Part shown: one piece after another, positions 7,416 through 30,250 of the stretch
Layout: every line of letters begins with the position of its first letter
Numbering within the stretch: the first letter of the stretch is position 1
Source of the DNA: Clostridia bacterium
GTDB lineage: Bacteria > Bacillota > Clostridia > UMGS1883 > UMGS1540
Length of the DNA stretch: 64,000 bases
Direction: 5' to 3'
Assembly (NCBI GenBank): GCA_017620205.1
Contig: JAFZQX010000004.1
Coordinates: forward strand, 1-64,000
The notes under the pieces: generated by a model
Databases searched by the model: none
Told to the model about the DNA's origin: nothing
The model's input: the letters and a program-made list of their open reading frames with translations, nothing else
Made by a program: the position numbers and the translations under genes

Positions 7416-8714
7416 TTATTTCTTCTGTTCTCTCAGAGCCTGTTTTGCAAGTCTTATGGACTGTACAATATGGCGTTTTGACGGACACACATAACTGCAT
7501 GAACCGCATTCTATACAATCGAGTATGTTATACTTTTTGCAGCTGTCCCAATCGCGAACTTCCGCATAGTTGCAAAAATTAAGCGGTAAAAGGTGTATTG
7601 GGCAAGCGGATACACATCTGCCGCAGCGGATACATGCCATGCTCTCGGGAAGCGTTGCTTCTTCTTCGGAGAGGCACAAAATAGAGCCTGTTCCCTTTAT
7701 GATAGGAAGATCAGTATCGGAAACTGCCATACCCATCATAGGACCGCCGAAAATAACCTTTCCTGGTTTACATACAAAACCGCCTGCAGCATCAATAAGA
7801 GACTGTGCCGACATACCGAGGCGAGCTCTGAAGTTTTTAGGCTCTTTTATAGCGGAACCTGCGACAGTTACTATTCTGCTTGTAAGCGGAGTACCGTATT
7901 TAGCAGCGTTATAAAGCACGGTAGCACTGTCAACGTTTAATACGATTACGCCAACATCGGCAGGAAGTCCACCGGATGGAACTTCACGTCCCGTAACAGC
8001 GTTTATAAGCTGTTTTTCACTACCCTGAGGGTATTTTGTTTTTAAGTTAACAACTTCAATATCGGGATACTTTTCACAAATTTTTCTCATGTTTTCGGCA
8101 GCATCGGCTTTGTTGTTTTCTATCGCAATAAAGCCGCGTTTTACACCGAGCTTTTTAAGAACCAGGTCAAGACCTCCCGCAACCTCTTCGCCTCGTTCTA
8201 AAAGAACTCTGTGGTCACTTGTAAGGTAGGGCTCACATTCCGAACCGTTAATAATTACGGTATCTACAGGTTTATCCTTCGGAGGTGAAAGCTTTACGTG
8301 CGTCGGGAAAGTTGCGCCGCCCATACCAACCGCACCCGCCGCAAGAGCAATATCTGCTATTGAAGCGTCTGCGGGCAAGGGTTTTACATCTTCTTTTTCA
8401 TCTTTAAAGTCATTTTGAATAACTACAGACAAAACTTTTTGGCCGGACGCAACGGCTCTTGGCTCAATCGCCGTAACAGTTCCGGATACAGACGAGAAAA
8501 TATTGGCAGATACAAATCCCTGCGCCTCGCCGATTTTTTGATACATCTTTACATAGTCGCCAACTTCAACGCAAGGAGCACAAGGTGCGCCTATATGCTG
8601 CGACATTGGAAAGACCATAAATTCATCGGGCTTAAGTTCCACAATCGGAACACCCGATGTCTGTTCTTTTTTGTCATCAGGGTGAATACCGCCCCGAAAA
8701 GTTAAAAGTTTCAA
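7416..8714 (-). CDS. rnfC: Rnf complex NADH-binding subunit C
   Basis: Peripheral subunit that exchanges electrons with NAD(H) and carries FMN and two 4Fe-4S clusters. At 432 residues it has the size of clostridial RnfC. The NAD/FMN-binding glycine-rich stretch AAGAVGMGGATFP and the cluster motifs CIRCGRCVSACP and CIECGSCSYVCP near the C-terminus are present. I place the start at a TTG (8714) because AGGAG lies eight bases upstream and the protein then begins KLLTFRGGIHP, as in relatives; an ATG 22 codons upstream has no ribosome site. It opens the rnf operon. Confidence 0.94.
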   Translation of the reverse strand: MKLLTFRGGIHPDDKKEQTSGVPIVELKPDEFMVFPMSQHIGAPCAPCVEVGDYVKMYQKIGEAQGFVSANIFSSVSGTVTAIEPRAVASGQKVLSVVIQNDFKDEKEDVKPLPADASIADIALAAGAVGMGGATFPTHVKLSPPKDKPVDTVIINGSECEPYLTSDHRVLLERGEEVAGGLDLVLKKLGVKRGFIAIENNKADAAENMRKICEKYPDIEVVNLKTKYPQGSEKQLINAVTGREVPSGGLPADVGVIVLNVDSATVLYNAAKYGTPLTSRIVTVAGSAIKEPKNFRARLGMSAQSLIDAAGGFVCKPGKVIFGGPMMGMAVSDTDLPIIKGTGSILCLSEEEATLPESMACIRCGRCVSACPIHLLPLNFCNYAEVRDWDSCKKYNILDCIECGSCSYVCPSKRHIVQSIRLAKQALREQKK

Positions 8715-8733
8715 GGTTTTTTCTCCTTTCGCC

Positions 8734-8778
8734 GCCCTGCAAGGCTTGTAGTTAATATATATCCCGGATCTGCAGGGC
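8734..8778 (-). promoter_or_regulatory. Inverted repeat in the rnfC leader
   Basis: GCCCTGCA at 8734-8741 is mirrored by TGCAGGGC at 8771-8778, ending 20 bases before the rnfC start codon. In RNA this would be an 8-bp stem with a 29-base loop. It could be an operator or a leader hairpin. I found no Rex-type redox site. Confidence 0.45.
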
Positions 8779-8863
8779 AATTAAATCCGGATTTGTTTTC
8801 TGTTGCTTGCACAGATAACCAATTTACACTTTATATATTCAAAATCAAAAAGAATCGAAGGAA

Positions 8864-11065
8864 CTAATTGATTTTTTTTAATTTTGCATATAACGCAAGA
8901 AGTGTTTTTGTTCCGTCTTTATCAAAAGCTATTTCTATTTTCATGTCGTTTCCGACGGGAACAGCAGTTAAAACAGTTCCTTCGCCGAATTTGCCGTGAA
9001 GCACTCTGTCTCCCGGTGCAAAATCAAATTTTGCGTTTTGCTGCACATCGGGTTTAGCTGTTGTAAAAGTAGGTTTAAATGAAACTGTATTTTCTCTTCT
9101 TTGAGGGATAAAGCTCGGCGCTGCAGATCTTTGCGCAAAGCCGAATTTTTCATCATAGAGCTCCTCCGGAATTTCCTTAGTAAAGCGTGATGGCTTGTTA
9201 GCTGTTGTTGTACCGAAGAGCATTCTTTCTCTTGCGTGCGTTAAATAAAGCTTTTTTTGAGCACGCGTTATTCCCACATAACAAAGTCTTCTCTCTTCTT
9301 CAAGCTCTTCTTTTTCAAACATTGAACGTTGACCCGGAAAAACGCCTTCTTCCATGCCGCAAAGGAAAACAACCGGAAACTCAAGACCTTTTGCACTGTG
9401 AAGAGTCATAAGTGACACGGTATCCTGATCCTCGTCATAATTATCAATATCGGAAACAAGAGAAATATTGTCAAGAAAGTCAGCAAGATTAGGACTTTCA
9501 TTGTCCTTTTCGTAGTTTACGGCAACAGACACAAATTCCTGCAGGTTCTCTACCCTTCCCCTAGCCTCAATGTCATTGGGGTTTACCATATATTGAGCAG
9601 CATATCCTGTCTTATCAAGTACTTCGGATATAAACTCGGATACGCCCATTGAAGATACTTTCTCTCTGAGCGACTCTATTATTTTTATAAAGCCGTCTGC
9701 TGCAGCTGCGGCTGCGGTTGAAAGAATTGCGGAATTATCTCTTAAAAACTCATAAATACTTATTCCGTTTTCCGCGGCAAGCTCTGTTGCTTTATCTGTT
9801 GTTGTCTTCCCTATTTTCCGTTTCGGCTCGTTTATTATTCGAAGCAGGCTTATATTATCTGTTATATTGTTTATAACACGAAGATACGCGATAATATCCT
9901 TAATTTCTTTACTGTCATAAAACCTGTGACCTGCAATAATTCTGTACGGTACAGCTTCATTTATCAGGCGTTCTTCAATCGTTCTTGCCTGGGCGTTCAT
10001 TCTGTATAAAACAGTCATGTCCGAAAACGGTATGTTCTCATACTTATTAAGTCTTTGTATTTCGGACGCTATATACATCGCTTCGTCGCGTTCGTTGTCC
10101 GCATAGTATTTTACGATTTTATCGCCTTTTCCGCTGTCCGTCCACAGTGTCTTTCCTTTTCTTCCCGTATTGTTTTTAATAACACTGTTTGCAGCATCCA
10201 AAATGTTTCCGCTTGAACGGTAATTCTGTTCAAGCCTTATTACAGTGGCGTTCGGAAACGTTTTTTCAAAGCTTAAAATATTCGCTATATTCGCACCTCT
10301 GAATTTATAAATACTCTGATCGTCGTCACCGACAACGCAGAGGTTTTTATATTTTGCGGCAAGAAGTGAAACAAGCTTATACTGGGCGTTGTTAGTATCT
10401 TGATATTCATCAATGTGAATATACATAAACTTGTCCTGATAGTATGAAAGCACTTCAGGACAGTCTAGGAAAAGCTTAACGGTAAGAATAATAAGATCGT
10501 CAAAATCGACACAGTTTGAGGCTTTCAGCTTCTCCTGATAGAGCTTGTATACTTTGCCTATAGCCTCCATTTTGAGGTTCCCGTGATAAGTTGCAATAAA
10601 CTCATCGGGCTCAACAAACTCATCTTTTGCGCTTGAAATATAACTTATACAAAGCGACGGCGAAAAAGTCTTTTCATCGAGATTAAGCTGTTTAACACAG
10701 TCTTTTATAAGCCTTTTCTGATCATCGGAATCATAAATTGTAAAGCCTTTGTCGTAACCTATTTTATCAATATCGCGGCGCAGGATCCTTACGCATGCGG
10801 AATGAAATGTTCTTATCCACATGTCGTCCGCAACATCTCCCAAAAGGCCATGAAGCCTTTCCTTCATTTCTCCTGCCGCTTTATTAGTAAAAGTTATTGC
10901 AAGTATATTCCAAGGCGATATGCCTATTTCGCTGCAAAGATAAGCAATTCTGTATGTAATTACACGCGTTTTTCCGCTGCCGGCGCCCGCAAGTACCAAA
11001 AGAGGTCCCTCAACATGCGTCACAGCCTTATATTGCATCTCGTTTAAATCGTTTATTGCAAACAT
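8864..11065 (-). CDS. pcrA: PcrA/UvrD-type superfamily 1A DNA helicase
   Basis: ATP-driven 3'-5' DNA helicase used in repair and in clearing RNA polymerase and replication conflicts. The 733 residues match PcrA length. The SF1A motifs run in order: Walker A AGAGSGKT near residue 27, DEYQDTN (motif II, DExQ) near 220, GDDDQSIYKFRGA (motif III), QNYRSS (motif IV), VSLMTLHSAKGLEF (motif V) and EERRLCYVGITRA (motif VI). The C-terminal tail ends in the PcrA Tudor-like segment (GDRVLHGKFGEGTV), which binds RNA polymerase in known PcrA. It stands between transketolase and rnfC. Confidence 0.96.
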   Translation of the reverse strand: MFAINDLNEMQYKAVTHVEGPLLVLAGAGSGKTRVITYRIAYLCSEIGISPWNILAITFTNKAAGEMKERLHGLLGDVADDMWIRTFHSACVRILRRDIDKIGYDKGFTIYDSDDQKRLIKDCVKQLNLDEKTFSPSLCISYISSAKDEFVEPDEFIATYHGNLKMEAIGKVYKLYQEKLKASNCVDFDDLIILTVKLFLDCPEVLSYYQDKFMYIHIDEYQDTNNAQYKLVSLLAAKYKNLCVVGDDDQSIYKFRGANIANILSFEKTFPNATVIRLEQNYRSSGNILDAANSVIKNNTGRKGKTLWTDSGKGDKIVKYYADNERDEAMYIASEIQRLNKYENIPFSDMTVLYRMNAQARTIEERLINEAVPYRIIAGHRFYDSKEIKDIIAYLRVINNITDNISLLRIINEPKRKIGKTTTDKATELAAENGISIYEFLRDNSAILSTAAAAAADGFIKIIESLREKVSSMGVSEFISEVLDKTGYAAQYMVNPNDIEARGRVENLQEFVSVAVNYEKDNESPNLADFLDNISLVSDIDNYDEDQDTVSLMTLHSAKGLEFPVVFLCGMEEGVFPGQRSMFEKEELEEERRLCYVGITRAQKKLYLTHARERMLFGTTTANKPSRFTKEIPEELYDEKFGFAQRSAAPSFIPQRRENTVSFKPTFTTAKPDVQQNAKFDFAPGDRVLHGKFGEGTVLTAVPVGNDMKIEIAFDKDGTKTLLALYAKLKKIN

Positions 11066-11097
11066 ATTCTTTCCGTTTCTATAGTCCCATACGCAAC

Positions 11098-11127
11098 CTT
11101 ACGGTGAAACATTTGTTCCACCGTAAG
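11098..11127. other. Stem-loop between transketolase and pcrA
   Basis: CTTACGGTG and CACCGTAAG form a 9-bp stem around a 12-base loop without a clear T run on either side. It may be a weak terminator or an mRNA-stabilising end for the transketolase transcript. Confidence 0.4.
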
Positions 11128-11149
11128 CTTTGCAAGTATTTAAATACTA

Positions 11150-12094
11150 TTACTTTGTTTTCTTTTTAATAGCTCTTTTTGCGGCAGCAGCAATGTCATC
11201 TGCCGTCATCTCATACATCTTGAGTAAAGCAGCAGGCTTACCACTCTTGCCGAATTTGTCTTTAGCACCGATTCTTTCCATGGGCGCAGGGCAGTTTTCA
11301 CAGAGAACTTCAGCAACAGCACTGCCGAGACCGCCGATAATGTTGTGTTCTTCGCATGTTACAACAGCGCCTGTCTTGCTTACTGATTTTGTGATAAGTT
11401 CAGCGTCGATAGGCTTAATTGTATGGATGTTTATTACTTCTGCACGGATACCGTCTGCTTTGAGCATTTCAGCAGCATTAACAGCTTCGGGAACAAGCAG
11501 ACCGTTTGCGATAATTGTAACGTCGCTTCCTTCGGATAAAACGATACCTTTACCAAGTTCAAACTTATATGTAGCGGGATCGTTATATACCGGAACGGAA
11601 AGACGGCCGAATCTGAGATATACGGGACCGTCATGTTCAATAGCAGCGAGAACTGCCGCACGTGCTTCAATAGCATCTGCAGGGCTAATAACTACCATGC
11701 CGGGAAGAGCGCGCATTAAAGCGATATCTTCGAGGCACTGGTGTGTAGCGCCGTCTTCACCAACGGAAATACCTGCGTGAGTAGCGCCAATTTTAACGTT
11801 TAAATGCGGATATGCAACAGAGTTTCTAACCTGTTCAAAAGCTCTGCCTGACGCAAACATTGCAAATGAGCTTGCAAAAACAGTTTTACCGCAGGAAGCA
11901 ATACCTGCAGCTGTTGTAATCATGTTAGCTTCCGCAATACCCATATTTATAAATCTTTCGGGGAATTTCTTTTTGAATGTATCTGTTTTGGTAGACTTAG
12001 AAAGGTCAGCGTCCATTACGACAAAATCATATTTATCGCCAAATTCAGCAAGCGCACTTCCGTAAGCCTCTCTTGTAGCTATTTTATCAGCCAT
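11150..12094 (-). CDS. Transketolase, C-terminal subunit
   Basis: Second half of a split transketolase, an enzyme of the non-oxidative pentose phosphate pathway that moves two-carbon units between sugar phosphates. The 314 residues contain the pyrimidine-binding domain (VVMDADLSKSTKT, GIAEANM with its catalytic glutamate) and the C-terminal transketolase domain (IIANGLLVPEAV). The partner with the diphosphate-binding domain is the next gene upstream, 42 bases away. Splitting into two proteins is common in Clostridia and archaea. A 1-deoxyxylulose phosphate synthase is unlikely because that enzyme is one chain. Confidence 0.9.
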   Translation of the reverse strand: MADKIATREAYGSALAEFGDKYDFVVMDADLSKSTKTDTFKKKFPERFINMGIAEANMITTAAGIASCGKTVFASSFAMFASGRAFEQVRNSVAYPHLNVKIGATHAGISVGEDGATHQCLEDIALMRALPGMVVISPADAIEARAAVLAAIEHDGPVYLRFGRLSVPVYNDPATYKFELGKGIVLSEGSDVTIIANGLLVPEAVNAAEMLKADGIRAEVINIHTIKPIDAELITKSVSKTGAVVTCEEHNIIGGLGSAVAEVLCENCPAPMERIGAKDKFGKSGKPAALLKMYEMTADDIAAAAKRAIKKKTK

Positions 12095-12136
12095 TTTATA
12101 TTCATTCCTTTCTCGTTAATTCAAAATTACAGTATA

Positions 12137-12961
12137 TTACTCTGCTCCGAGTTCTTTCATAGCTTGGTTGTATTCTTCTTCATTGGGAGCTTTGCCGTGC
12201 CATCCAGCCTGGTTTTCCATGAAGGAAACGCCTTTACCTTTAACGGATTTAGCAACGATAGCTGTGGGTTTTCCTTTTGTAGCTTTAGCTGCAGAAACTG
12301 CTGCTTCAATGCTGTCAAAATCATGAGCGTCGCATGTTAAAACGTTCCAGCCGAAAGCTTCAAACTTCTTGTCGATAGGTGTCGGGTTCATAACTTTTGT
12401 GATGTCACCGTCTATCTGGAGACCGTTGAAGTCAACAAAAATTGTAAGGTTGTCGAGGTTATACTGAGCTGCAAACATAGCTGCTTCCCATACCTGACCT
12501 TCTTCAATTTCACCGTCACCTAAAATAGCATATACTCTGTAATCTTTTTTATCGAGTTTTCCGGCCATTGCCATACCGCCGGCAGCGCACACGCCCTGAC
12601 CGAGTGAACCGGTTGACATATCAACACCGGGAACTTTCTTCATATCGGGGTGACCTTCAAGATGGCTGTCAATACTGCGGAAACCTTTAAGATCTTCTAC
12701 CGGGAAATAACCTCTTTCTGCCAAAACAGCGTAGAGCGCGGGAGCGCAGTGTCCTTTACTCATAACAAATCTGTCTCTGTCGGCCATTTTCGGGTTTTTC
12801 GGATCAACATTCATTTCTTCAAAATAAAGATATGCAAGAATGTCTGCCGTTCCGAGTGAGCCGCCCGGATGTCCGGAGCTGGCGCTATAAACCTCTGTAA
12901 TTATGTCGCGACGAATATTCTGTGCAACTTTGGCAAGCTTATCCTTTTTTGCTTGTTCCAT
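12137..12961 (-). CDS. Transketolase, N-terminal subunit
   Basis: The thiamine-diphosphate half of a split transketolase, 274 residues. The ThDP/Mg motif starts at GDGEIEEGQVWEAAMFA and continues to the FVDFNGLQIDG asparagine. SSGHPGGSLG near the N-terminus carries the family's substrate-facing histidine, and MSTGSLGQG is the usual cofactor loop. It is the first gene of the pair; the ribosome site is an AGGATG-like sequence. It works only with the C-terminal subunit encoded directly downstream. Confidence 0.91.
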   Translation of the reverse strand: MEQAKKDKLAKVAQNIRRDIITEVYSASSGHPGGSLGTADILAYLYFEEMNVDPKNPKMADRDRFVMSKGHCAPALYAVLAERGYFPVEDLKGFRSIDSHLEGHPDMKKVPGVDMSTGSLGQGVCAAGGMAMAGKLDKKDYRVYAILGDGEIEEGQVWEAAMFAAQYNLDNLTIFVDFNGLQIDGDITKVMNPTPIDKKFEAFGWNVLTCDAHDFDSIEAAVSAAKATKGKPTAIVAKSVKGKGVSFMENQAGWHGKAPNEEEYNQAMKELGAE

Positions 12962-19013: not shown

Positions 19014-19046
19014 AAACTGCAAAACATCCTGTTTTGCAGTTTTTTT
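19014..19046 (+). terminator. Terminator after the mannitol dehydrogenase gene
   Basis: ACTGCAAAACA (19016-19026) and TGTTTTGCAGT (19030-19040) form a perfect 11-bp stem around a TCC loop, followed by six T. It separates the sugar genes from the peptide locus. Confidence 0.85.
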
Positions 19047-19047
19047 C

Positions 19048-19076
19048 TTGCTTTTAGCCTCAATATGTGATATATT
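19048..19076 (+). promoter_or_regulatory. Possible promoter of the peptide locus
   Basis: TTGCTT (19048-19053) and TATATT (19071-19076) with a 17-base spacer lie between the terminator and the PqqD gene. A second -10-like TATAAT occurs at 19084-19089 without a matching -35 box. Confidence 0.45.
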
Positions 19077-19106
19077 AATATATTATAATGAAATGAGGAA
19101 ATCATA

Positions 19107-19382
19107 ATGAAGATCAAAGACGGTTACAGTCTCAAAAACGTTGCGGGCACTTACATGATAGTACCTTTAGGCGATAACTTTGTAGACTTTACTTCAGTTA
19201 TAACCACAAATGAAACAGGCGCGTTTCTTTGGGAATGCCTCAACTCACAAAAAACAAAAGAAGAAATCTGCGATGCCGTAATGTCTGAATTTGAAGGCGC
19301 ATCGCGCGAAATTGTTGAACGAGATTTAAATAGATTTATAGAAGAACTTGACAAGAATAATATGTTGGAGAAAGATTCATGA
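19107..19382 (+). CDS. PqqD family peptide-recognition (RRE) protein
   Basis: A 91-residue protein with the winged-helix PqqD fold, which in ribosomal peptide pathways binds the leader of a precursor peptide and presents it to modifying enzymes. Family features include the ETGAFLWECL helix near residue 33, the following TKEEICDAVMSEFEG segment and the VERDLNRFIEELDKNNML C-terminus. It is free-standing, not fused to a radical SAM enzyme. Its stop overlaps the S26 peptidase start by four bases (ATGA). A 60-residue peptide with a YxxPxL motif, the site read by such domains in lasso pathways, is encoded downstream at 22659. Confidence 0.85.
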   Translation: MKIKDGYSLKNVAGTYMIVPLGDNFVDFTSVITTNETGAFLWECLNSQKTKEEICDAVMSEFEGASREIVERDLNRFIEELDKNNMLEKDS

Positions 19383-19840
19383 TATTCAAACGAATCAGAC
19401 CGCCTGTTGATATAATCGCCCCATTAATAATAGAAGAAATAGGCGCGGGCAACGACGTCAAAATAGGAGTAACAGGCTTTTCAATGTACCCTCTTTTACG
19501 CAGTGAAAGCGACATGGTGATACTTTCAAAGCCCGAAAACATCAAAAAACTCGACGTTGTATTCTACAAACGACCAAACGGGCAGTATGTTCTGCACAGA
19601 ATAATTCGAAAAAAAGGTGACGTGCTGTCTATTGCAGGGGACAACGAAACGGAACTTGAACACCCGGTTTATGTGTCCGACTGCATCGGTAAAATGACAT
19701 ATTATATAAGAAACGGAAAAAAGCATTCCGTAAACAGTATTTCCTATTTATTATACTGCCATTTTTGGAAGTTTATATTTCCTTTCAGGCACATAGCGGT
19801 AAAAGCAATAATGTTTATCGGAAAGCATCGCAGAAAATAA
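19379..19840 (+). CDS. S24/S26 family peptidase, signal peptidase-like
   Basis: A 153-residue protein resembling the catalytic core of type I signal peptidases. GFSMYPLL carries the nucleophile Ser35. The second motif reads YVLHRII with His73 where the bacterial housekeeping enzyme has lysine, so it is of the SipW/eukaryotic-like Ser-His type. DVVFYK and the later KHSVNSISYLLYC segment fit the fold. There is no clear N-terminal membrane anchor; the C-terminus is hydrophobic and may attach to the membrane. It is coupled to the PqqD gene and 13 bases before the ABC exporter. I infer cleavage of an exported peptide or protein of this locus. Confidence 0.72.
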   Translation: MIFKRIRPPVDIIAPLIIEEIGAGNDVKIGVTGFSMYPLLRSESDMVILSKPENIKKLDVVFYKRPNGQYVLHRIIRKKGDVLSIAGDNETELEHPVYVSDCIGKMTYYIRNGKKHSVNSISYLLYCHFWKFIFPFRHIAVKAIMFIGKHRRK

Positions 19841-19853
19841 GTCTAACAGGACG

Positions 19854-21536
19854 GTGATTTTAATAAATAACGAAAGAAGAGCAAAAAAATACATTATAAA
19901 TATCGCCGGCAGCGTAAAGTTTCAAATAGTCTTTTTGACACTTTGTACTCTTTCGCTTTCCTATATTACAATACAGTTTGCATTGGCTTCCAAAACAGTT
20001 CTGGACGCAGCAACTCTTTCAGAAATGCGCCACCACCTTTCGCCCGGTATTAAAAGACTTGCGATTCTCGTTTTGATACAGCTTATACTTCAAATAATGT
20101 GCACCTTTGTTAATTTGCGCTCCGAAGCATTTCTGAAAAACAAAGTACAGAAAGACCTGTTCTCAAAGCTTTTGAGAAAACAGTACATGCCGCTTTCGGA
20201 ATATCACTCCGGAGAGCTTTTAAACAGGCTGGACGGTGATGTAAGTATTGTTACAAAAACAGTCATATCCATAATACCCAATGCGCTTGGTTTTCTTTCC
20301 CGCATAGTACTCGGATTCTGGCTTTTATATAAGCTGGACCGCGACTTTGCACTTTTGTTCCTTGTTATAGGTCCTCTTATGATGCTTATAGCAAGAGTAT
20401 ACAGCAAAAAAGTTAAACCTCTTCACAAAGTATGCCGCCAGACATCGGGCAAAGTACATTCCTTTATACTTGACGCTCTGCGCAGTATTCTCGTAATTAA
20501 ATCTTTCGGCGTTTATGATAAGATGACCGAAAACGCAGAAGAGCTGCAAAACCAAAACTTTAAAGCGGTATTAAAGCGCGGATATATAAGTATAATTGCA
20601 AATATTCTTTTTTATATATCATTGACAGCAAGCTATTATTTCGCAGTTGCATGGTGTGCATACAAAATATCTGCAGGAATTATGACTATAGGTACGTTTG
20701 CGGCAGTTTTACAACTTGTAAGCCAGGTTCAGGCTCCGTTTAAAGACTTAGCAGCATCAATTCCACAGTTTTTCGCAATGACTGCATCGGCCGAAAGAAT
20801 CTGTGAACTCACAGGTTTACAAGACGACAACATAACCGAAAGCGAACCTGATTTATCAAAAATATACAAAGAAATGTCTTCATTATATTTAGATAATATT
20901 GTCTTCTCATATAATAATGAAGAAATTTTAAAAAACGCCTCTGTCGATATTCCTAAAAATACGATCGTAGCTGTATCCGGCATATCGGGTATAGGTAAAA
21001 GTACAATGCTTAAACTAATTTTAGGGATTTTGATTCCCGACAAAGGTGAAATCGGAATAAAGCTTTCAAACAGATCAAAGCTTAAAATTGACGCTTCCAC
21101 AAGATGCTTGTTTTCATACGTTCCCCAAGGTAATCTGCTTATATCGGGGACGGTACGCGACAACATATGCTTTATTGATAAAGAATATAATGAAGAAAGG
21201 ATGCTTAAAGCAGCAAAAGACGCATGCGCGTATGATTTCATACAAGAATTGCCCGACGGCTTTGACACCATGCTCGGCGAAAACGGCCTGGGCCTTTCAG
21301 AGGGTCAGATGCAAAGACTTTCCGTTGCCCGTGCGCTGTACAGCAAAGCGCCTATTCTTCTGCTTGACGAAGCAACATCGGCTCTCGATGAAATGACAGA
21401 ACAAAACATGCTCAAAAACATCCGATCGCTTAAAGACAGAACATGCATCATTGTTTCTCATAAAGATTGCGCGGCAAGCTTAAGCGATTATTTATTATAT
21501 ATTGAAAACGGCCAGATCATCCTAAAGTCAACCTAA
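19854..21536 (+). CDS. ABC exporter with fused membrane and ATPase domains
   Basis: A 560-residue half-transporter that would work as a homodimer. The first ~310 residues form a type IV exporter membrane domain with about six helices. The ATPase domain has Walker A GISGIGKST at 376-384, the signature LSEGQMQRL, and Walker B ILLLDEATSALDE with D505 and E506. No N-terminal C39 peptidase domain is present, which fits a separate peptidase next door. The start is uncertain: the GTG at 19854 has an AGGA only two bases upstream. Substrate is unknown; the neighbours suggest a peptide. Confidence 0.85.
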   Translation: MILINNERRAKKYIINIAGSVKFQIVFLTLCTLSLSYITIQFALASKTVLDAATLSEMRHHLSPGIKRLAILVLIQLILQIMCTFVNLRSEAFLKNKVQKDLFSKLLRKQYMPLSEYHSGELLNRLDGDVSIVTKTVISIIPNALGFLSRIVLGFWLLYKLDRDFALLFLVIGPLMMLIARVYSKKVKPLHKVCRQTSGKVHSFILDALRSILVIKSFGVYDKMTENAEELQNQNFKAVLKRGYISIIANILFYISLTASYYFAVAWCAYKISAGIMTIGTFAAVLQLVSQVQAPFKDLAASIPQFFAMTASAERICELTGLQDDNITESEPDLSKIYKEMSSLYLDNIVFSYNNEEILKNASVDIPKNTIVAVSGISGIGKSTMLKLILGILIPDKGEIGIKLSNRSKLKIDASTRCLFSYVPQGNLLISGTVRDNICFIDKEYNEERMLKAAKDACAYDFIQELPDGFDTMLGENGLGLSEGQMQRLSVARALYSKAPILLLDEATSALDEMTEQNMLKNIRSLKDRTCIIVSHKDCAASLSDYLLYIENGQIILKST

Positions 21537-21603
21537 CAGCCGTATTTGTACAATATGCACAAAACACATATCCAAAATTGTTCATATTTGTTTTTCAATT
21601 TTG

Positions 21604-21632
21604 TTGACATCAAAGTTATATTTTGCTATAAT
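21604..21632 (+). promoter_or_regulatory. Perfect consensus SigA promoter of the secreted protein
   Basis: TTGACA (21604-21609) and TATAAT (21627-21632) with exactly 17 bases between them, followed by AGGGGAG before the ATG at 21672. Every core position matches consensus, which predicts strong expression. Confidence 0.85.
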
Positions 21633-21671
21633 GTCAGTAGAAGATTATAAAGTAAGGGGAGAAATAATAAA

Positions 21672-22571
21672 ATGAAAAAGAAAAGCATACGTATTTTATC
21701 TATCTTAGCTGTATTGATTTTTGCAGTATCTTTTGCAACAACTGCTTTTGCAGCTAGCGTTAGCACAACAACAAAGTATGTTGTAGGTGCTGACAACATT
21801 AACAAAATTCAGGTAACCACAAACGTTACAGGTGCTACACCCGCAAGCAACGTTTCATATCTCGTAACAGCAGGTAATAATGCTGAGCCTTCAAGTTCAA
21901 ACGTTCTTTATATGAACCAGTATGAAGTTGATGCTTCAGGCGCAGCGACAATCAGCTACAAATTGAATACAGCATCTGCTAATTGGCCTGCTAACTATGT
22001 AACAACAGTTAGATTCGGTTCTACAGCAGGTGATACAATTACAGACAATTTAAATTCTATTCAGAACTACAGAGCTTATTATAACACCGACGGTTCTGTT
22101 AATTTCCTTCCTGTTGAAGGAAAAGAAATTGCAACAATCACTAAAAACGGCAATGCTGTTGCTAACTCTTTAGCATTAACACAGACAGCTGTACAGGGTG
22201 ATTTGTTTGAAGTAACAACACAGAACCTTACATCCGGTGCTGTTGGTGATGATAAAATGGCATCAGCTCTTACAACAATTGATACAGATGAACAGACAGT
22301 TAACATTTTGTTCCAGCCCGTTGCAGGAAGCGGTATTACTGAACTCGGTATTAAATACGGTTCACTTTTATTCCCCTCTGTAGCCGAAGTTGACGGTAAT
22401 CCTTTCATTGGTATTACAAATGTAAAACTTGATTTTAGCGGTGCAATTCATGGTGAATATACATTCGCAGGCGAAGCTGCTAAATGTGTTCCCTACTATC
22501 TCGATGACCAAGGTGACTTATACTACTATGACGAAACCGAAGACGAATTCGTTGCAGGTACATTAGAATAA
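21672..22571 (+). CDS. Secreted protein of unknown function
   Basis: I do not recognise a family. The 299-residue protein starts with a classic signal peptide (positive residues 2-7, hydrophobic core to about 22, AFA site so cleavage after A27). The mature part is Thr/Ala/Val-rich, looks beta-rich and lacks cysteine until one near the C-terminus (AAKCVPYY). The tail is acidic and tyrosine-rich (YYLDDQGDLYYYDETEDEF). There is no lipobox, LPXTG or SLH motif, so it is probably released or held by other means. It is driven by a perfect promoter inside the peptide locus and is followed by a hairpin and the small peptide gene. Confidence 0.75.
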   Translation: MKKKSIRILSILAVLIFAVSFATTAFAASVSTTTKYVVGADNINKIQVTTNVTGATPASNVSYLVTAGNNAEPSSSNVLYMNQYEVDASGAATISYKLNTASANWPANYVTTVRFGSTAGDTITDNLNSIQNYRAYYNTDGSVNFLPVEGKEIATITKNGNAVANSLALTQTAVQGDLFEVTTQNLTSGAVGDDKMASALTTIDTDEQTVNILFQPVAGSGITELGIKYGSLLFPSVAEVDGNPFIGITNVKLDFSGAIHGEYTFAGEAAKCVPYYLDDQGDLYYYDETEDEFVAGTLE

Positions 22572-22583
22572 TTTGTACATTAT

Positions 22584-22620
22584 CTTATACATCTTCTAAG
22601 CCTGCGACGGGATGTATAAG
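22584..22620 (+). other. Intercistronic stem-loop upstream of the small peptide gene
   Basis: CTTATACATC (22584-22593) pairs perfectly with GATGTATAAG (22611-22620) around a 17-base loop, with no T run after it. A competing pairing CCTGC (22601-22605) with GCAGG (22632-22636) overlaps the loop. This could set mRNA ends or control read-through from the secreted-protein gene into the peptide gene. Confidence 0.55.
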
Positions 22621-22658
22621 TGAGATGATATGCAGGCAGAAAGGTTACGGTAATCATA

Positions 22659-22841
22659 ATGAGAAAATATACAACACCGACTCTTGAAGTAGTTAAGCTT
22701 TTAGTAAGAGAAGATATGGCAGCAAAAAAAGTAACGGGTATCAACGGAACATATGATGGCGATATCAATACCACAACATATACTCTTACTTCTGATATAG
22801 TATCCGAAGCTAATGAACCCGAAGAGGACGAAGGCGAATAA
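22659..22841 (+). CDS. Putative RiPP-type precursor peptide with YxxPxL leader
   Basis: A 60-residue peptide. Residues 4-9 are YTTPTL, matching the YxxPxL motif that PqqD-like recognition domains bind in lasso peptide leaders, followed by EVVKLLVRED. The second half (GINGTYDGDINTTTYTLTSD, then an acidic EPEEDEGE tail) has no cysteine and no known core. It has no signal peptide. It is followed directly by a strong terminator, and AAAGG lies rather far (14 bases) upstream of its ATG. Location among a PqqD protein, a peptidase, an exporter and an HprK-like kinase supports a modified peptide; the modification is unknown. Confidence 0.65.
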   Translation: MRKYTTPTLEVVKLLVREDMAAKKVTGINGTYDGDINTTTYTLTSDIVSEANEPEEDEGE

Positions 22842-22873
22842 TCAATAAACTTAACAGTTTATATATTGTAATT

Positions 22874-22904
22874 AAAAAGGTTGATATTATTATCAACCTT
22901 TTTT
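22874..22904 (+). terminator. Terminator after the small peptide gene
   Basis: GGTTGATA (22879-22886) and TATCAACC (22891-22898) form a stem around TTAT, extended by five A-T pairs and ending in six T. It separates the peptide gene from the kinase gene. Confidence 0.88.
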
Positions 22905-22949
22905 AACTACTATGAGCTTTTTAATCAAATATTCCAAGGAATGCAGATT

Positions 22950-23819
22950 ATGATAAAATACTATTATATAGCAGGATTAAGCATGGTGTTTAATATGATG
23001 CCGGACGATTATTTCGAATCAATCCTCTCGCCCTATTCAATCACACCAATCAGTAAAGCTGATTTGAATTTTGAAATAATTAAAAGCGATATTGCACCAA
23101 TAATACCAAGCAACATTCAAAAACGCACAATAGGACAAAACAAATATTACTGTAATTTAGATGGTAATGATACAGTTTTTTATTTTGATACAATACTAAA
23201 TAAAGTAATAGCACTTTTAACTTTTTCTGAGGATTATTCAAAAATCACCATAAAAGCACTTAATATATACAGTCCGAATGTCAGCTCAAAGTATTTTATA
23301 TTTAATCTCGTTGGATATGCTCTCCACTATATAATACAAATGAAGGGCGGTTTTGTTTTTCACTCCTCCTCTATTTGCTGCCAAAAACAAGGAATAGCAT
23401 TTTCGGCAAAATCGGGCACCGGTAAAACGACACACACATCACTTTGGCTCAAATACATTCCCGATTGTTTAATGCTAAACGATGATACACCAATAATCAA
23501 ATTAAACGACAACGGAGAAGTTTATATATACGGTACACCGTGGGCAGGTACAACAGGCAGGCACACTAATTTTTCGATTCCGCTTAAAGCGCTGGTTTTT
23601 ATAGAACGCAACGAAACTAACAGCATACAAAGCATTAATTCAGACATTGCCATCAAACGTTTTTATGAGGGAATCACACCTCCGTTAACCCCTGCCATGC
23701 TCTCATCATCTCTATACACTATGGACAGAATAATAAGTTACGTACCTACGTATCTTTTATCTTGTAATATGCAGCCGGAAGCAGCAAAAGTAGCGTATGA
23801 AGCCATTTTTAACGGCTGA
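22950..23819 (+). CDS. HprK-like P-loop kinase
   Basis: A 289-residue protein resembling the kinase domain of HPr kinase but lacking HprK's usual N-terminal domain. The P-loop SAKSGTGKTTHTSLW has K159. LMLNDDTPII carries the acidic pair expected at the metal site, and YGTPWAGTTGRH follows. Homologues near lasso peptide genes (PadeK of the paeninodin cluster is the known case) phosphorylate a peptide serine. I chose the ATG at 22950 because AAGGA lies nine bases upstream and the preceding bases are a terminator. By inference it modifies the peptide or secreted protein encoded upstream. Confidence 0.75.
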   Translation: MIKYYYIAGLSMVFNMMPDDYFESILSPYSITPISKADLNFEIIKSDIAPIIPSNIQKRTIGQNKYYCNLDGNDTVFYFDTILNKVIALLTFSEDYSKITIKALNIYSPNVSSKYFIFNLVGYALHYIIQMKGGFVFHSSSICCQKQGIAFSAKSGTGKTTHTSLWLKYIPDCLMLNDDTPIIKLNDNGEVYIYGTPWAGTTGRHTNFSIPLKALVFIERNETNSIQSINSDIAIKRFYEGITPPLTPAMLSSSLYTMDRIISYVPTYLLSCNMQPEAAKVAYEAIFNG

Positions 23820-23854
23820 ATTACAATTTATATCTAAAAGGAGATTTAAAACTT

Positions 23855-25504
23855 ATGAAAAAACTATTATTAATCTTACTTGCTTTTACATTAATTTTTT
23901 CAATGCCGCAAGCGGCGCTTGCCTCATCTTTTCCCGATGTTGATGACAGTCACTGGGCTATAAATTATATAAATAACCTTGTAGCAGCAGGTACTATTAA
24001 CGGTTTTGAAGACGGAACTTTTCGTCCGGGCGAAATTGTCACACGTGCTCAGTTCGTTAAAATGATAGGTTACGGGAGCACAAGGCGCGAATATGATTTT
24101 CCCGATATAGCACCCGACCACTGGGCATACGAATATATAATGACGTGTGAACTTGCCGCAAAACCCAATGGCAACTTTGAGCCCAATTTACCTATAACAA
24201 GAAATGAAGTAGTAAGTCTTCTTTGGATAAGAGCAGGAAAACCTGCAGGTGTTACAGCTCCTCCCAACATCAACAGACAAGGTTCAAGCGCACAGGCGGT
24301 ATCTTGGGCTTATTCTACCGGTTTAGTAGTTGGAGATGATTATCTTAACCTAAGACTTAAAGATTCTTTGACACGCGCAGAAGCTGCAAAAATCATCGTA
24401 TGCTCACGCGAATTAGATAATACTACGGGTACACCTATCGAAGGCAGTTCATACAAACGAAAAGTATCATACTATAATGTAGTTGATGACGGTATATACG
24501 AAAGAACGTATAACGCTTTAGACGTTATAGATAAGCCTTATAATCCCGACGATACAATTACAAACGGTGAGCTTGCGCTTGCAGCCGTAAGGCTTATATG
24601 TGACGAGAAAAAACCTGCATACGCTAATATTTCCGCAGTGCCTCAATTTTCTCATAAATACGCAAAACCAATCGACGTGCTTTGCAGATATTATTTAGGA
24701 AATGATAAAAACAACGCATCATACGCAGACTCCGCTGCCACTGTAAGAGAAGCCATAATGGCTTTGATGTTTGCAACAATTCGAACATCAACCTCTTATA
24801 TTAAATATGACGAGAACGGTCCTATTTATAACGGCGCAGCTTATGAAAGCGATACAGCAAAGCTTTTACTTACAATTGCATATCAGTATGGTATAAAATT
24901 GGGAGACAACGAAATTCAAAATATAAACTCACCGGTCACCATGAAAGAATTTGCTAATTTATTGCTTGAATTTGACGGCATGTCAGGTTTTTATACATCA
25001 AAATCATTTATGGCAAACGGTGAACAAACAATAAAAGACTGCCAGATAAATTCTAAGATTTCATCATATCCCGCAAACGCAGATCAGTATAATGTAATAT
25101 TAGCTGATGTCCCCGCATACGTTTACGAAACGCCTTTCTTAAACTGTGAACAGTCACCGAAAGAAAGCTTCTTTGTAACAAATCAATTTAAGTTAATTTT
25201 TGAAACCTTATGTTCACAGCTTGCTCATAATATCACAGGCAAAGGCGCAAATGTAACAATTACACTTTATCCCGGCCTCACATGGAACAACGGAAAAGGC
25301 TACACACTTCGTGTTAAGTTTACTGTAAACTCATTATCGGAGCCGCGTGTTCTTTCTGAGGTAATTAATTGTTCAAATGATACAATCGGCTCACTTAACC
25401 TCTATCAGGGAATGAGCATATTCCTTGATATTGACACAAACAACTTATTAAACGACGTTGTTTTCCCGACAGATAAAGCATCTGTAACCCAATATGTCGG
25501 CTAA
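23855..25504 (+). CDS. Secreted protein with S-layer homology (SLH) domains
   Basis: A 549-residue exported protein. A signal peptide (about 1-23, site near ALA) precedes two clear SLH domains (FPDVDDSHWAINYINNL with GFEDGTFRPG and TRAQFVKMIG, about 24-70; YDFPDIAPDHWAYEYI, about 79-125) and a weaker third (AVSWAYSTGLVVGDDYLNLRLKDSLTRAEAAKII, about 148-187). SLH triplets bind pyruvylated cell-wall polymer. The remaining 360 residues show no family I know, though residues 200-370 may hold further degenerate repeats of the same kind. AAAGGAG precedes the ATG. Its place inside the peptide locus is unusual. Confidence 0.85.
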   Translation: MKKLLLILLAFTLIFSMPQAALASSFPDVDDSHWAINYINNLVAAGTINGFEDGTFRPGEIVTRAQFVKMIGYGSTRREYDFPDIAPDHWAYEYIMTCELAAKPNGNFEPNLPITRNEVVSLLWIRAGKPAGVTAPPNINRQGSSAQAVSWAYSTGLVVGDDYLNLRLKDSLTRAEAAKIIVCSRELDNTTGTPIEGSSYKRKVSYYNVVDDGIYERTYNALDVIDKPYNPDDTITNGELALAAVRLICDEKKPAYANISAVPQFSHKYAKPIDVLCRYYLGNDKNNASYADSAATVREAIMALMFATIRTSTSYIKYDENGPIYNGAAYESDTAKLLLTIAYQYGIKLGDNEIQNINSPVTMKEFANLLLEFDGMSGFYTSKSFMANGEQTIKDCQINSKISSYPANADQYNVILADVPAYVYETPFLNCEQSPKESFFVTNQFKLIFETLCSQLAHNITGKGANVTITLYPGLTWNNGKGYTLRVKFTVNSLSEPRVLSEVINCSNDTIGSLNLYQGMSIFLDIDTNNLLNDVVFPTDKASVTQYVG

Positions 25505-25521
25505 TTCAGGAAGGATCGGTT

Positions 25522-26685
25522 ATGACTTCTGATTTTACCGCTAACACAGCTATAAGTATTCTTTGTTCATATATAAAGAACGAACAACTGAATATTGATT
25601 TAAACGAGGAACAGATCAAAGATCTGTTCCTCGTTATGAAAGCACACGATCTCACTCATTTGCCGGGACTTACGATCATAGACGCAAATAACAAACCTAA
25701 ATATGAGATGTTTCAAAGGGCTCAATTTATGGCGGCAATGCGATATGAGCAGCAGCAGTATCAACGAATGAAAATTTCTGAGCTTTTTGAAAACAACGGA
25801 ATTAAATATGTACACTTAAAAGGTTCTGTTATTGCACAGCTTTACCGTGAATCATGGCACAGAACCAGCTGCGACATTGATATACTGCTTAATAAATCAG
25901 ATATAGATAAAGCTGTAAAGCTACTGTCCGATGAATTAGGATATAAACTACGCCAAAACATGACAGATCATGACATTAGCTTGTTTCTTGGCGATAATAT
26001 CCACGTTGAACTTCATTATGATTTATGTGAATCGTGTATTGATTTAAACGATGCCATGAAATCCGCAGAACCTGCATCAGGTAAGAAATACGAATACGTT
26101 TTCACACCTGAAATTATCATGCTTTATCATTATGCGCACATGGCAACTCATTTTAAAAAAGGCGGTATAGGTCTTAAGTCTGTTTTAGACTTATACCTTT
26201 TAGAACATAATGTAAAATATGACAAGGAGATTCTGAATAACCTGTTAACAAAGGGCGGCATCAAAAAGTTTGCCGATGCTATGCTTCATATTACAAAAGT
26301 ATGGTTTGAAGACGGAAAACCGGACGAATTAACAGACATTTTAAAAAGTTTCATTTTTGATTCCGGGGCATACGGAAGCTTAAAGCATACAGTGACAATG
26401 TATATGCATGAAAGTCTCGAAAAAAACGCTGGTTCAGGCAACTTTAAATACGCTATTAACAGAATATTTCTCCCATATAAAGATTTAAAATACATTTATC
26501 CCATTCTTCTCAAGCACAAGTCACTTATACCCGTTTACCAAATAAAACGTTGGATTACCCTATTATCTCCAAAAAGATTCGGCAAAGTAAAAAAAGAGAT
26601 CAAAACGGTAGCCGGAATGAACGCGGATACTTCGTGCAAAATCATTGATATGCTAAAAGAGCTGGAATTATTGGATTCTAAATAA
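25522..26685 (+). CDS. Nucleotidyltransferase family protein (NTP_transf_5 type)
   Basis: A 387-residue protein of the uncharacterised nucleotidyltransferase family often found next to ribosomal peptide genes. The signature region KGSVIAQLYRESWHRTSCDID near residue 99 ends in a D-I-D motif (D118, D120), the expected metal ligands, followed by the typical LLSDELGYKL and HVELHYDL segments. No membrane segment is visible. It starts 17 bases after the SLH gene. By inference it attaches a nucleotide to a product of the locus, but the family has no firm activity that I can name. Confidence 0.72.
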   Translation: MTSDFTANTAISILCSYIKNEQLNIDLNEEQIKDLFLVMKAHDLTHLPGLTIIDANNKPKYEMFQRAQFMAAMRYEQQQYQRMKISELFENNGIKYVHLKGSVIAQLYRESWHRTSCDIDILLNKSDIDKAVKLLSDELGYKLRQNMTDHDISLFLGDNIHVELHYDLCESCIDLNDAMKSAEPASGKKYEYVFTPEIIMLYHYAHMATHFKKGGIGLKSVLDLYLLEHNVKYDKEILNNLLTKGGIKKFADAMLHITKVWFEDGKPDELTDILKSFIFDSGAYGSLKHTVTMYMHESLEKNAGSGNFKYAINRIFLPYKDLKYIYPILLKHKSLIPVYQIKRWITLLSPKRFGKVKKEIKTVAGMNADTSCKIIDMLKELELLDSK

Positions 26686-26688
26686 ACA

Positions 26689-26730
26689 AAAGGTGTATTA
26701 CAAGCAGACAGTCTTGCTAATACACCTTTT
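26689..26730. terminator. Bidirectional terminator between convergent genes
   Basis: GGTGTATTA (26692-26700) and TAATACACC (26718-26726) form a 9-bp stem flanked by A and T runs. It closes the rightward peptide locus and the leftward lipoprotein operon. Confidence 0.85.
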
Positions 26731-26731
26731 T

Positions 26732-28323: not shown

Positions 28324-28743
28324 CTAATTTAAAGTAATCATATTATTATCGTCTAAAAAATCGTCTAATTTAAAAACGTCATATCCGTGTGTTATTCCAT
28401 AGATTATTATGCTGTCACGCTTATCACGCGCGTCAAGTACAGCAAATTTTGATATCCTTAGCAACAGCTGTGTTTCCTCAAGAGAAAGATTCATTCCAAG
28501 AGCAATAGAAATCAAAATGTTTCTTGAAGGAGTTCTTTCGCCGTTAAAAACCTTATATAAATATACCCCAACTCCGGATTTTTTCACAACCTCAGAAACG
28601 GCAAGATTTTTAACCGTTAGCAAGTCGTTTAAGTATCCCGCCGCATCAAAATTAATAAAATCTTTTTCATGAGAATCAAAAAAAGCTTGCAGATTGTCAG
28701 CAGTTTTAATTTCTTTTAATAGTTCCTCCGTACTCGTTTTCAT
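28324..28743 (-). CDS. Helix-turn-helix regulator
   Basis: A 139-residue probable DNA-binding protein. The middle (AVSEVVKKSGVGVYLYKVFNGERTPSRNILISIALGMNLSLEET) reads like a Cro/C1-type helix-turn-helix in which the recognition helix is SGVGVYLYKVFNG. The N-terminal 35 residues are helical and acidic. I place the start at 28743 because GGAGG lies seven bases upstream; the TTG two codons earlier is too close to it. It is divergent from a membrane Ser/Thr kinase gene with 70 bases between, so it may control both directions. Confidence 0.72.
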   Translation of the reverse strand: MKTSTEELLKEIKTADNLQAFFDSHEKDFINFDAAGYLNDLLTVKNLAVSEVVKKSGVGVYLYKVFNGERTPSRNILISIALGMNLSLEETQLLLRISKFAVLDARDKRDSIIIYGITHGYDVFKLDDFLDDNNMITLN

Positions 28744-28813
28744 TGACAAGCCTCCAATACTTTTATATAATAATTATAGTATAAAAATGAAAAATATTCA
28801 AGGAGAGATTTTT

Positions 28814-30250
28814 ATGTTTTCCTCCGAATCTCTTAAAACAATAAGAATAATCAAGCAAAACGAAACCAAAACAATATCTATAGTTGAAGATACATCTGGA
28901 ATTAAATATTTAAAACGTGAGATAAACGGTGACAAGAGAGAAATATACAAAGCACTCCAAAAAATAAACCAACCGAACATACCAAGAATTAAATATGTTG
29001 AGCTAACAGATAAAACCGTTGTGATAGAAGAATATATAAACGGTACAGCTCTCAGTGAAATAATGGAACAAAACAAAAAACTCAGCAAAAAAGATATTCT
29101 ATGCATTTCTAAACAAGTTTTGTCTGCTCTTTGTATACTACACAAGAACAATATCCTACACAGGGACGTTAAACCCGATAATATACTTATAGATAACTTA
29201 AATCATGTATGGCTTATTGATTACGATATTTCAAGGATATACCGTAATGAAATAAGAAAAGATACAGAGCTTAAGGGAACATTCGGCTACGCGCCAATAG
29301 AACAGTACGGCATGCTGCCAACAGATTATAAAACAGATATTTATGCATTTGGCGCAACGCTTAAAACGCTTCTTTCCTATTCTCGCCAAAAAGGCAGTTT
29401 AAATAAAATAGCGGAAAAATGTATGCGGCTTGACCCTTCAGAGCGTTACAGCAATGCCGAAAGCATAAAAAAAGCCATAAGACGAGCAAAGTATAAAAAA
29501 ATAATACCGGGAACTATAATTACATCGGCAATCGCCGGAGCAATATTTTTTTATTTATTAAACCGAGTTCCGTCCGGATATGTCCGCGTATCTGATGAAA
29601 TGCTTTCAATTATCCGTTTTGAAGACTTTAACGCTTCTGAATCTGTAAATAAATATTATAATTACGAAGGATATGACAGTCTTACTATTTTCGGCGTCGA
29701 CTCCCCTATTTCTCACCTTCTGTTTATTGAAGACATGGAAATGAACGGTAAAATTAACATGGGCAGAAACCAAAATACTAAAATAGACGCATCTTTTAAA
29801 CTCAAAAACGGTGTGCTTTCGGTTTGCCTTTCAGACCCTTACGGACACAGTTTTAACCATGAATTTAAATATGATAACAATAGCGATAATCACAATTATG
29901 AATTACTCTACCGCGAAAACCGCCGCAAAAATGCAGATATAATATGTTGGGATATGGAAAAAGACGGCATAGAAGAGCTGCTAATAGGCATTAATGACGC
30001 TACTTTCGTTCCCGAAGAACACAGAATACTAAGTTATATGAACTATTGTCAAGGGTGGTGTATAAAATATGACGAAGGCAGAGGATTTATACTGTGCAGC
30101 GGCGATATGTTTTCCGAGGGCACAAAGTTTTGGTTGTATAAAGAAGAAACGGGCGTATATCTCCCCTATTTTTCGGGTACATGCGAGAAATACAGAATAC
30201 AAAAGTATTACTTGTTAGATGACGATTTATGTGAAAAAAAATATTCCTGA
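28814..30250 (+). CDS. Membrane-anchored Ser/Thr protein kinase
   Basis: A 478-residue Hanks-type kinase. The catalytic loop HRDVKPDN is at 116-123, the metal-binding motif is DYD (136-138) in place of DFG, and GTFGYAPIEQYG is the activation and P+1 segment. One membrane helix follows at about 231-250, with about 225 residues outside the cell. That outer part has no PASTA repeats and no family I recognise; it is rich in Asp/Glu/Asn. The ATG at 28814 follows AGGAGAG. The DFG-to-DYD change keeps the metal-binding aspartate, so activity is expected. Confidence 0.88.
   Translation: MFSSESLKTIRIIKQNETKTISIVEDTSGIKYLKREINGDKREIYKALQKINQPNIPRIKYVELTDKTVVIEEYINGTALSEIMEQNKKLSKKDILCISKQVLSALCILHKNNILHRDVKPDNILIDNLNHVWLIDYDISRIYRNEIRKDTELKGTFGYAPIEQYGMLPTDYKTDIYAFGATLKTLLSYSRQKGSLNKIAEKCMRLDPSERYSNAESIKKAIRRAKYKKIIPGTIITSAIAGAIFFYLLNRVPSGYVRVSDEMLSIIRFEDFNASESVNKYYNYEGYDSLTIFGVDSPISHLLFIEDMEMNGKINMGRNQNTKIDASFKLKNGVLSVCLSDPYGHSFNHEFKYDNNSDNHNYELLYRENRRKNADIICWDMEKDGIEELLIGINDATFVPEEHRILSYMNYCQGWCIKYDEGRGFILCSGDMFSEGTKFWLYKEETGVYLPYFSGTCEKYRIQKYYLLDDDLCEKKYS

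Follow-up and report, generated by a model that had tools for sequence, protein, structure and literature searches.

A clostridial peptide pathway of the LPP type that is probably tied to surface proteins

Here we describe a locus in a stretch of 64,000 nucleotides (the window) of Clostridia bacterium (assembly GCA_017620205.1, contig JAFZQX010000004.1, positions 1 to 64,000). The locus probably represents a clostridial branch of a pathway for ribosomally synthesized and post-translationally modified peptides (RiPPs), one tied to surface proteins: a peptide guided by a RiPP recognition element (RRE), phosphorylated, exported and acting with its surface protein. The pathway type is that of the linear polyphosphorylated peptides (LPP), a RiPP class published in May 2026 in Nature Communications, mostly from Bacilli; its authors state the biological role of the peptides as unknown (PMC13381572). 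What is new is that clostridial precursors of the LPP type sit behind the genes of diverse secreted proteins, and that in two genomes the type of the peptide core co-varies with the C-terminal domain of the partner protein. Also new is the operon order in Clostridia, with an undescribed family of secreted proteins (SEC, our working label for the family of the protein encoded at 21672–22571) and an S-layer homology (SLH) protein bearing a new domain. No earlier paper on the pairing of secreted proteins with precursors was found, subscription-only literature lying outside the search.

Precursors were located across whole genomes by peptide profiles alone. Of 391 clostridial genomes, 67 had them, as many as 16 in a single one and scattered over contigs, their genes starting anywhere from a slight overlap with a larger open reading frame (ORF) to about 90 bases 3′ of it. 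In a sample taken blind to the neighbours, a signal peptide was found in 16 of the 18 complete upstream ORFs, against a base rate of 14% (p 3e-12); ten further upstream ORFs all had one under a slightly laxer rule (26/28 in all). The partner proteins are diverse (GLUG, BspA-type leucine-rich repeat, F5/8C, Big_2, InlB-repeat, esterase, subtilase-dockerin). Nearly identical cores recur 3′ of different proteins, and within one genome the precursors are spread out, each with a different secreted protein encoded upstream. No C-terminal end motif common to the partner proteins was found, and their domains differ. As a separate observation, genome G410 (L256:715–5688, L257:799–6840 and 8018–12544; G- and L-numbers are our labels for genomes and loci) encodes giant GLUG-repeat surface proteins, each followed 18 bases on by the gene of a near-identical 47-residue peptide.

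The type of peptide core goes with the C-terminal domain of the partner. In G043, six pairs combine one core with one type of C-terminal domain, and six others have a second core with a second domain type; outside these domains the partner proteins resemble one another far less. Peptide core and the C-terminal 110 residues of the partner are correlated in this genome with a Mantel r of 0.92 (p 5e-5). The corresponding r is 0.68 (p 2e-4) in G234, which belongs to another family, and 0.89 in G278 (p 0.08, five pairs only).

In the window, eight co-directional genes span 19107–26685 between two terminators. A sequence-only reading made before this analysis had listed these genes and both flanking terminators, and all eight are ORFs at the positions it gave. 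It had also treated the region as a single locus between terminators; the outer terminators bear this out, but an internal promoter and an internal terminator had been overlooked. The features are as follows:

19014–19042, + strand: terminator at the left edge of the locus (terminator scan)
19107–19382, + strand: discrete RRE of the PqqD family, LppB-like (PF05402, E 2.5e-15)
19379–19840, + strand: S26/SipW-like leader peptidase, LppS-like (weak matches to SipW and signal peptidase models; S35, H73)
19854–21536, + strand: MsbA-like ATP-binding cassette (ABC) exporter, LppD-like, lacking a peptidase domain (domain search)
21604–21632, + strand: promoter TTGACA-17-TATAAT with extended -10 (12/12 sigma-70 match), preceding the secreted-protein gene
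21672–22571, + strand: secreted partner protein, SEC family (signal peptide, all-beta, no Pfam match)
22659–22841, + strand: 60-residue precursor peptide, starting MRKYTTPTLEVV..., with YxxPxL
22876–22904, + strand: internal terminator 3′ of the peptide gene, hairpin and T run (from the sequence)
22941–23819, + strand: HprK-like kinase, LppK-like (H141, P-loop GTGKTT, D182)
23855–25504, + strand: SLH-domain protein with C-terminal alpha/beta domain (kept with the operon)
25522–26685, + strand: NTP_transf_5 nucleotidyltransferase, LppN-like (PF14907, E 9.7e-36)
26690–26731, + strand: terminator at the right edge of the locus (stem read from the sequence; the terminator scan did not list it)

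Between the RRE and peptidase genes there is an overlap of 4 bases; in LPP, too, a discrete RRE gene lies beside that of the SipW-like peptidase. The internal promoter is perfect, with TG 5′ of the -10, and stands 39 bases upstream of the secreted-protein gene. Promoters matching at least 11/12 with a 17-base spacer occur at this position of the SEC gene in 13 of 20 loci (the window counted), compared with 39 matches of this quality over 365 kb in all. Directly 3′ of the peptide gene a terminator is again present in 8 of the 14 relatives examined. Thus, with a promoter on the 5′ side and a terminator on the 3′ side, the secreted-protein and peptide genes form a strong predicted transcription unit of their own within the longer operon. 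Outside the locus, on its 3′ side, an ORF at 28694–30250 resembles a Ser/Thr kinase as judged by eye.

A search with the SEC family, followed by reading of the loci, found the order RRE, S26 peptidase, ABC exporter, secreted protein, peptide, HprK-like kinase and SLH protein in L061, L201–L204, L206–L208, L211 and L214. The order is nearly complete in L205 (no S26 called) and L212 (interrupted by a contig end), and the same genes are divided into two groups in L200, L063/L216 and L078/L217. Because several genera and families share the whole order, the gene set is not a product of chance. An RRE was found in all 24 assemblies tested that have the SEC/peptide unit (one assembly is counted twice in this set, G131 being G453). 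The NTP transferase, present in the window, is absent from the loci of most SEC-type relatives. Cultivable relatives that possess the machinery include Ruminococcus flavefaciens and Kandleria vitulina (L087, L113). Homologous loci without the peptide gene were sought, and all loci with the secreted-protein gene proved to have an adjoining peptide gene.

The secreted and SLH proteins had been taken as neighbours in the sequence-only reading; they are indeed present, but they turned out to be the main novelty. The link to the cell surface that it had suggested (export perhaps to the S-layer) is supported. The SLH protein is a constant member of the operon. Its AlphaFold model is confident (pLDDT 89) and shows SLH repeats and, at the C-terminus, an alpha/beta domain roughly 170 residues long; this domain has no match in the PDB, and the SLH part alone matches Sap and SpaA. 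The secreted protein is predicted to be mostly beta, with an ordinary signal peptide and a conserved N-terminal region. It matches no Pfam family above cut-off, and its structure model is of low confidence (pLDDT 62), with no useful PDB match.

The lpp cluster studied experimentally is that of Paenibacillus alginolyticus DSM5050, and the LPP core set comprises a discrete RRE, a SipW-like peptidase, an HprK-like kinase, an NTP transferase, an MsbA-like exporter and a YxxP precursor (PMC13381572). The window holds this set complete, including the kinase, the exporter and the NTP transferase. Since the same core gene set is the LPP pathway of PMC13381572, the pathway is not the unfamiliar one it had been thought to be. 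In a single-sequence search the window RRE matches LppB (9x8z, E 0.0033) but not the paeninodin RRE (9x90); a profile of its relatives matches both, LppB at 3.6e-8 vs 9x90 at 1.1e-4. The LppB residues N33, D70 and F74, which hold the Tyr-type leader (PMC13381572), align with N35, D73 and F77 of the window RRE, and among 58 relatives the N is found in 56, the D in 53 and the F in 28.

LppS removes the leader solely when the RRE is present (PMC13381572). In the window peptidase, S35 and H73 are invariant (56/56 relatives), as are D88 and E94, whereas D101 is variable; the third catalytic residue of LppS is D93 in its own numbering. The His, P-loop and Asp of the kinase are invariant in 107/107 sequences. 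Its earlier designation as HprK-like is upheld by P-loop/PEPCK-like similarity and by its relatives, but not by any Pfam or NCBIfam match above cut-off, and neither the S26 protein nor the HprK profile found anything specific in the PDB beyond PEPCK/P-loop similarity. In L060:6172–7329 (genome G007), an HprK-like kinase carries an RRE (PqqD) domain as an N-terminal fusion, which suggests that RRE and kinase cooperate.

The leader of the window precursor, MRKYTTPTLEVVKLLVREDMA, carries YxxP as Y4-T-T-P7 and not the WxxP of paeninodin-type leaders. LPP leaders have YxxPx[V/L] and an extended motif, VLxHQxIxFET (PMC13381572). The 22 SEC-type precursors share MKxYxKPxxxVVELxVxENIA; the Tyr, the Pro and an acidic residue (E/D) at +14 are found in 22/22, and +5 is hydrophobic. 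The acidic residue aligns with LppA position E-2. For the window precursor, the small residues at +15 and +17 point to cleavage after A21; by alignment to LppA, the cut would instead fall after D19. LppK phosphorylates Ser 3 of the core and does not accept Thr (PMC13381572), and precursors of the EDVITTSG type retain a Ser at this position. The six precursors closest to that of the window have a core terminating in Y-x-L-x5-S, the Ser standing exactly eight residues after the Tyr in 6/6 (S49 in the window). A related HprK-like kinase modifies a C-terminal Ser in paeninodin (as cited in PMC7533575), and by this analogy S49 would be the best candidate for the phosphosite. The window genome has a single precursor of this kind and a single PqqD. 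In a related genus, kinase-SLH loci (L047:9570–9899, L046:2474–2686) carry a small ORF of another kind, whose leader resembles YxKLRAAIVDLTETLDETVSF and lacks YxxP; this ORF may encode a further type of precursor for the same machinery.

Several observations weigh against the reading of a phosphorylated peptide that acts with its surface protein. At the position used by LppK the window core lacks a Ser (EDMAAKKV), and such a Ser is present in about 7 of the 22 SEC-type precursors and missing in about two thirds. The extended LPP motif is mostly absent, HQ and FET not being conserved. Signal peptides were assigned by a simple rule based on hydropathy, which 14% of ORFs pass. Two genera are exceptions to the pairing: in L099:5838–9819 (a metagenome-assembled genome of Peptococcaceae) and L119:7647–9707 (Ruminiclostridium cellobioparum), YxKP precursors are accompanied by radical SAM and NTP_transf_5 genes and not by secreted proteins, and therefore radical SAM enzymes may also act on some precursors of the LPP type. 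Finally, joint duplication of whole gene pairs could explain the co-variation of core and C-terminal domain; such duplication can contribute, but it means that domain and peptide travel as one unit. The sequence-only reading had proposed recognition, phosphorylation or nucleotidylation, cleavage and export of a ribosomal peptide with no lasso cyclase involved. With phosphorylation as the modification it holds in outline, but this step is less secure than in LPP, since the Ser known as the acceptor there is missing.

The steps can be pictured as follows. The RRE (19107) would bind the Y4-P7-L9 leader of the 60-residue precursor, and the HprK-like kinase would phosphorylate a Ser/Thr of the core, most plausibly S49. 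The RRE would present the precursor to the S26 peptidase for a cut after A21 (or D19), and the core would be secreted through the ABC exporter. The product of the upstream gene would exit by the Sec route. The best-supported role is that the peptide would act at the cell surface together with its secreted partner's C-terminal domain; the SLH protein that the operon encodes is likely to be anchored there. A more specific form of this proposal, which we put forward tentatively, is that the matured peptide may be a separately made and exported part of the surface protein, bound or joined to the C-terminal domain of the upstream partner (for instance, by contributing a beta strand or through phosphate-based attachment to the SLH/cell-wall layer), one set of RRE, kinase, peptidase and exporter serving many pairs per genome.

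Other explanations of the locus were considered. It is unlikely that the product is a secreted antimicrobial or signalling peptide of the LPP type, the secreted protein being merely a co-expressed neighbour (carrier, immunity or decoy). RiPP logic, variable cores and a strong private promoter would suit such a peptide, as would the patchy, selection-driven transfer typical of conflict genes that the LPP authors infer (PMC13381572). However, precursors are dispersed within a genome behind different secreted proteins, near-identical cores stand behind different proteins, and the core type follows the C-terminal domain of the partner. A surface fibre similar to that of SipW and TasA appears more improbable still. 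The S26 protein would then be the signal peptidase of the secreted and SLH proteins, which share an operon, with RRE, kinase and peptide forming a regulatory side branch. The weak matches of the S26 protein to SipW and archaeal-type signal peptidase models agree with this, but its relative LppS has been shown to cleave a leader in an RRE-dependent manner (PMC13381572), the RRE and S26 genes adjoin in most loci, and the signal peptide of the secreted protein is ordinary.

A lasso pathway with cyclase and B2 protease elsewhere in the genome has RRE, HprK-like and NTP_transf_5 families in common with the locus. Neither enzyme had been seen in the window, and the absence holds across the entire window genome (2.34 Mb in 46 contigs, 100% complete by tool estimate). 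No B2 protease (PF13471) was found there, and the two weak Asn_synthase (PF00733) matches read as GMP synthase (GuaA) and NAD synthetase (NadE); a search for a lasso pair away from the locus thus found none. Nor was a B2 protease found above cut-off in 50 other genomes carrying the kinase or in the 24 assemblies with the secreted-protein/peptide unit and relatives. The YxxP leader also differs from the WxxP of paeninodin. The whole-genome searches therefore reject a lasso pathway with a distant cyclase, and what chance it retains, should the 46-contig assembly miss genes, is negligible.

The pairing of precursors with secreted proteins, and the tracking of the C-terminal domain by the core, give LPP-type peptides a concrete, testable role. 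If the surface-protein reading is true, RiPP chemistry is employed to build or dress surface proteins, and precursor scans confined to biosynthetic clusters would miss most precursors, because these are scattered behind surface-protein genes in gut bacteria.

In comparison with known systems, the window shares with paeninodin-type lasso loci an RRE, an NTP_transf_5 protein and an HprK-like kinase of a kind able to phosphorylate a C-terminal Ser, but it lacks cyclase and B2, has YxxP in place of WxxP in its leader, and has an RRE nearer to LppB than to PbaB1. SipW/TasA-TapA of Bacillus subtilis resembles it in that a SipW-like peptidase is encoded beside surface or secreted proteins; that system is not known to have an RRE, kinase or precursor peptide, whereas the window peptidase is by homology a leader peptidase. 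The likeness to LPP of P. alginolyticus extends to the discrete RRE, the SipW-like Ser-His leader peptidase, the HprK-like kinase, the NTP transferase, the MsbA-like exporter, the YxxP leader, the acidic residue before the predicted cut and the lack of a cyclase. Unlike LPP, the window operon includes a conserved secreted protein and an SLH protein, clostridial precursors are dispersed 3′ of secreted-protein genes, the NTP transferase is optional in clostridial loci, no lasso system co-occurs in the window genome, and the host lineage is Clostridia, not Bacilli. Since the window precursor has no Ser 3 at the LppK site, we set the system apart from plain membership of LPP; in most of its defining features, as far as they can be read from sequence, the pathway works like LPP.

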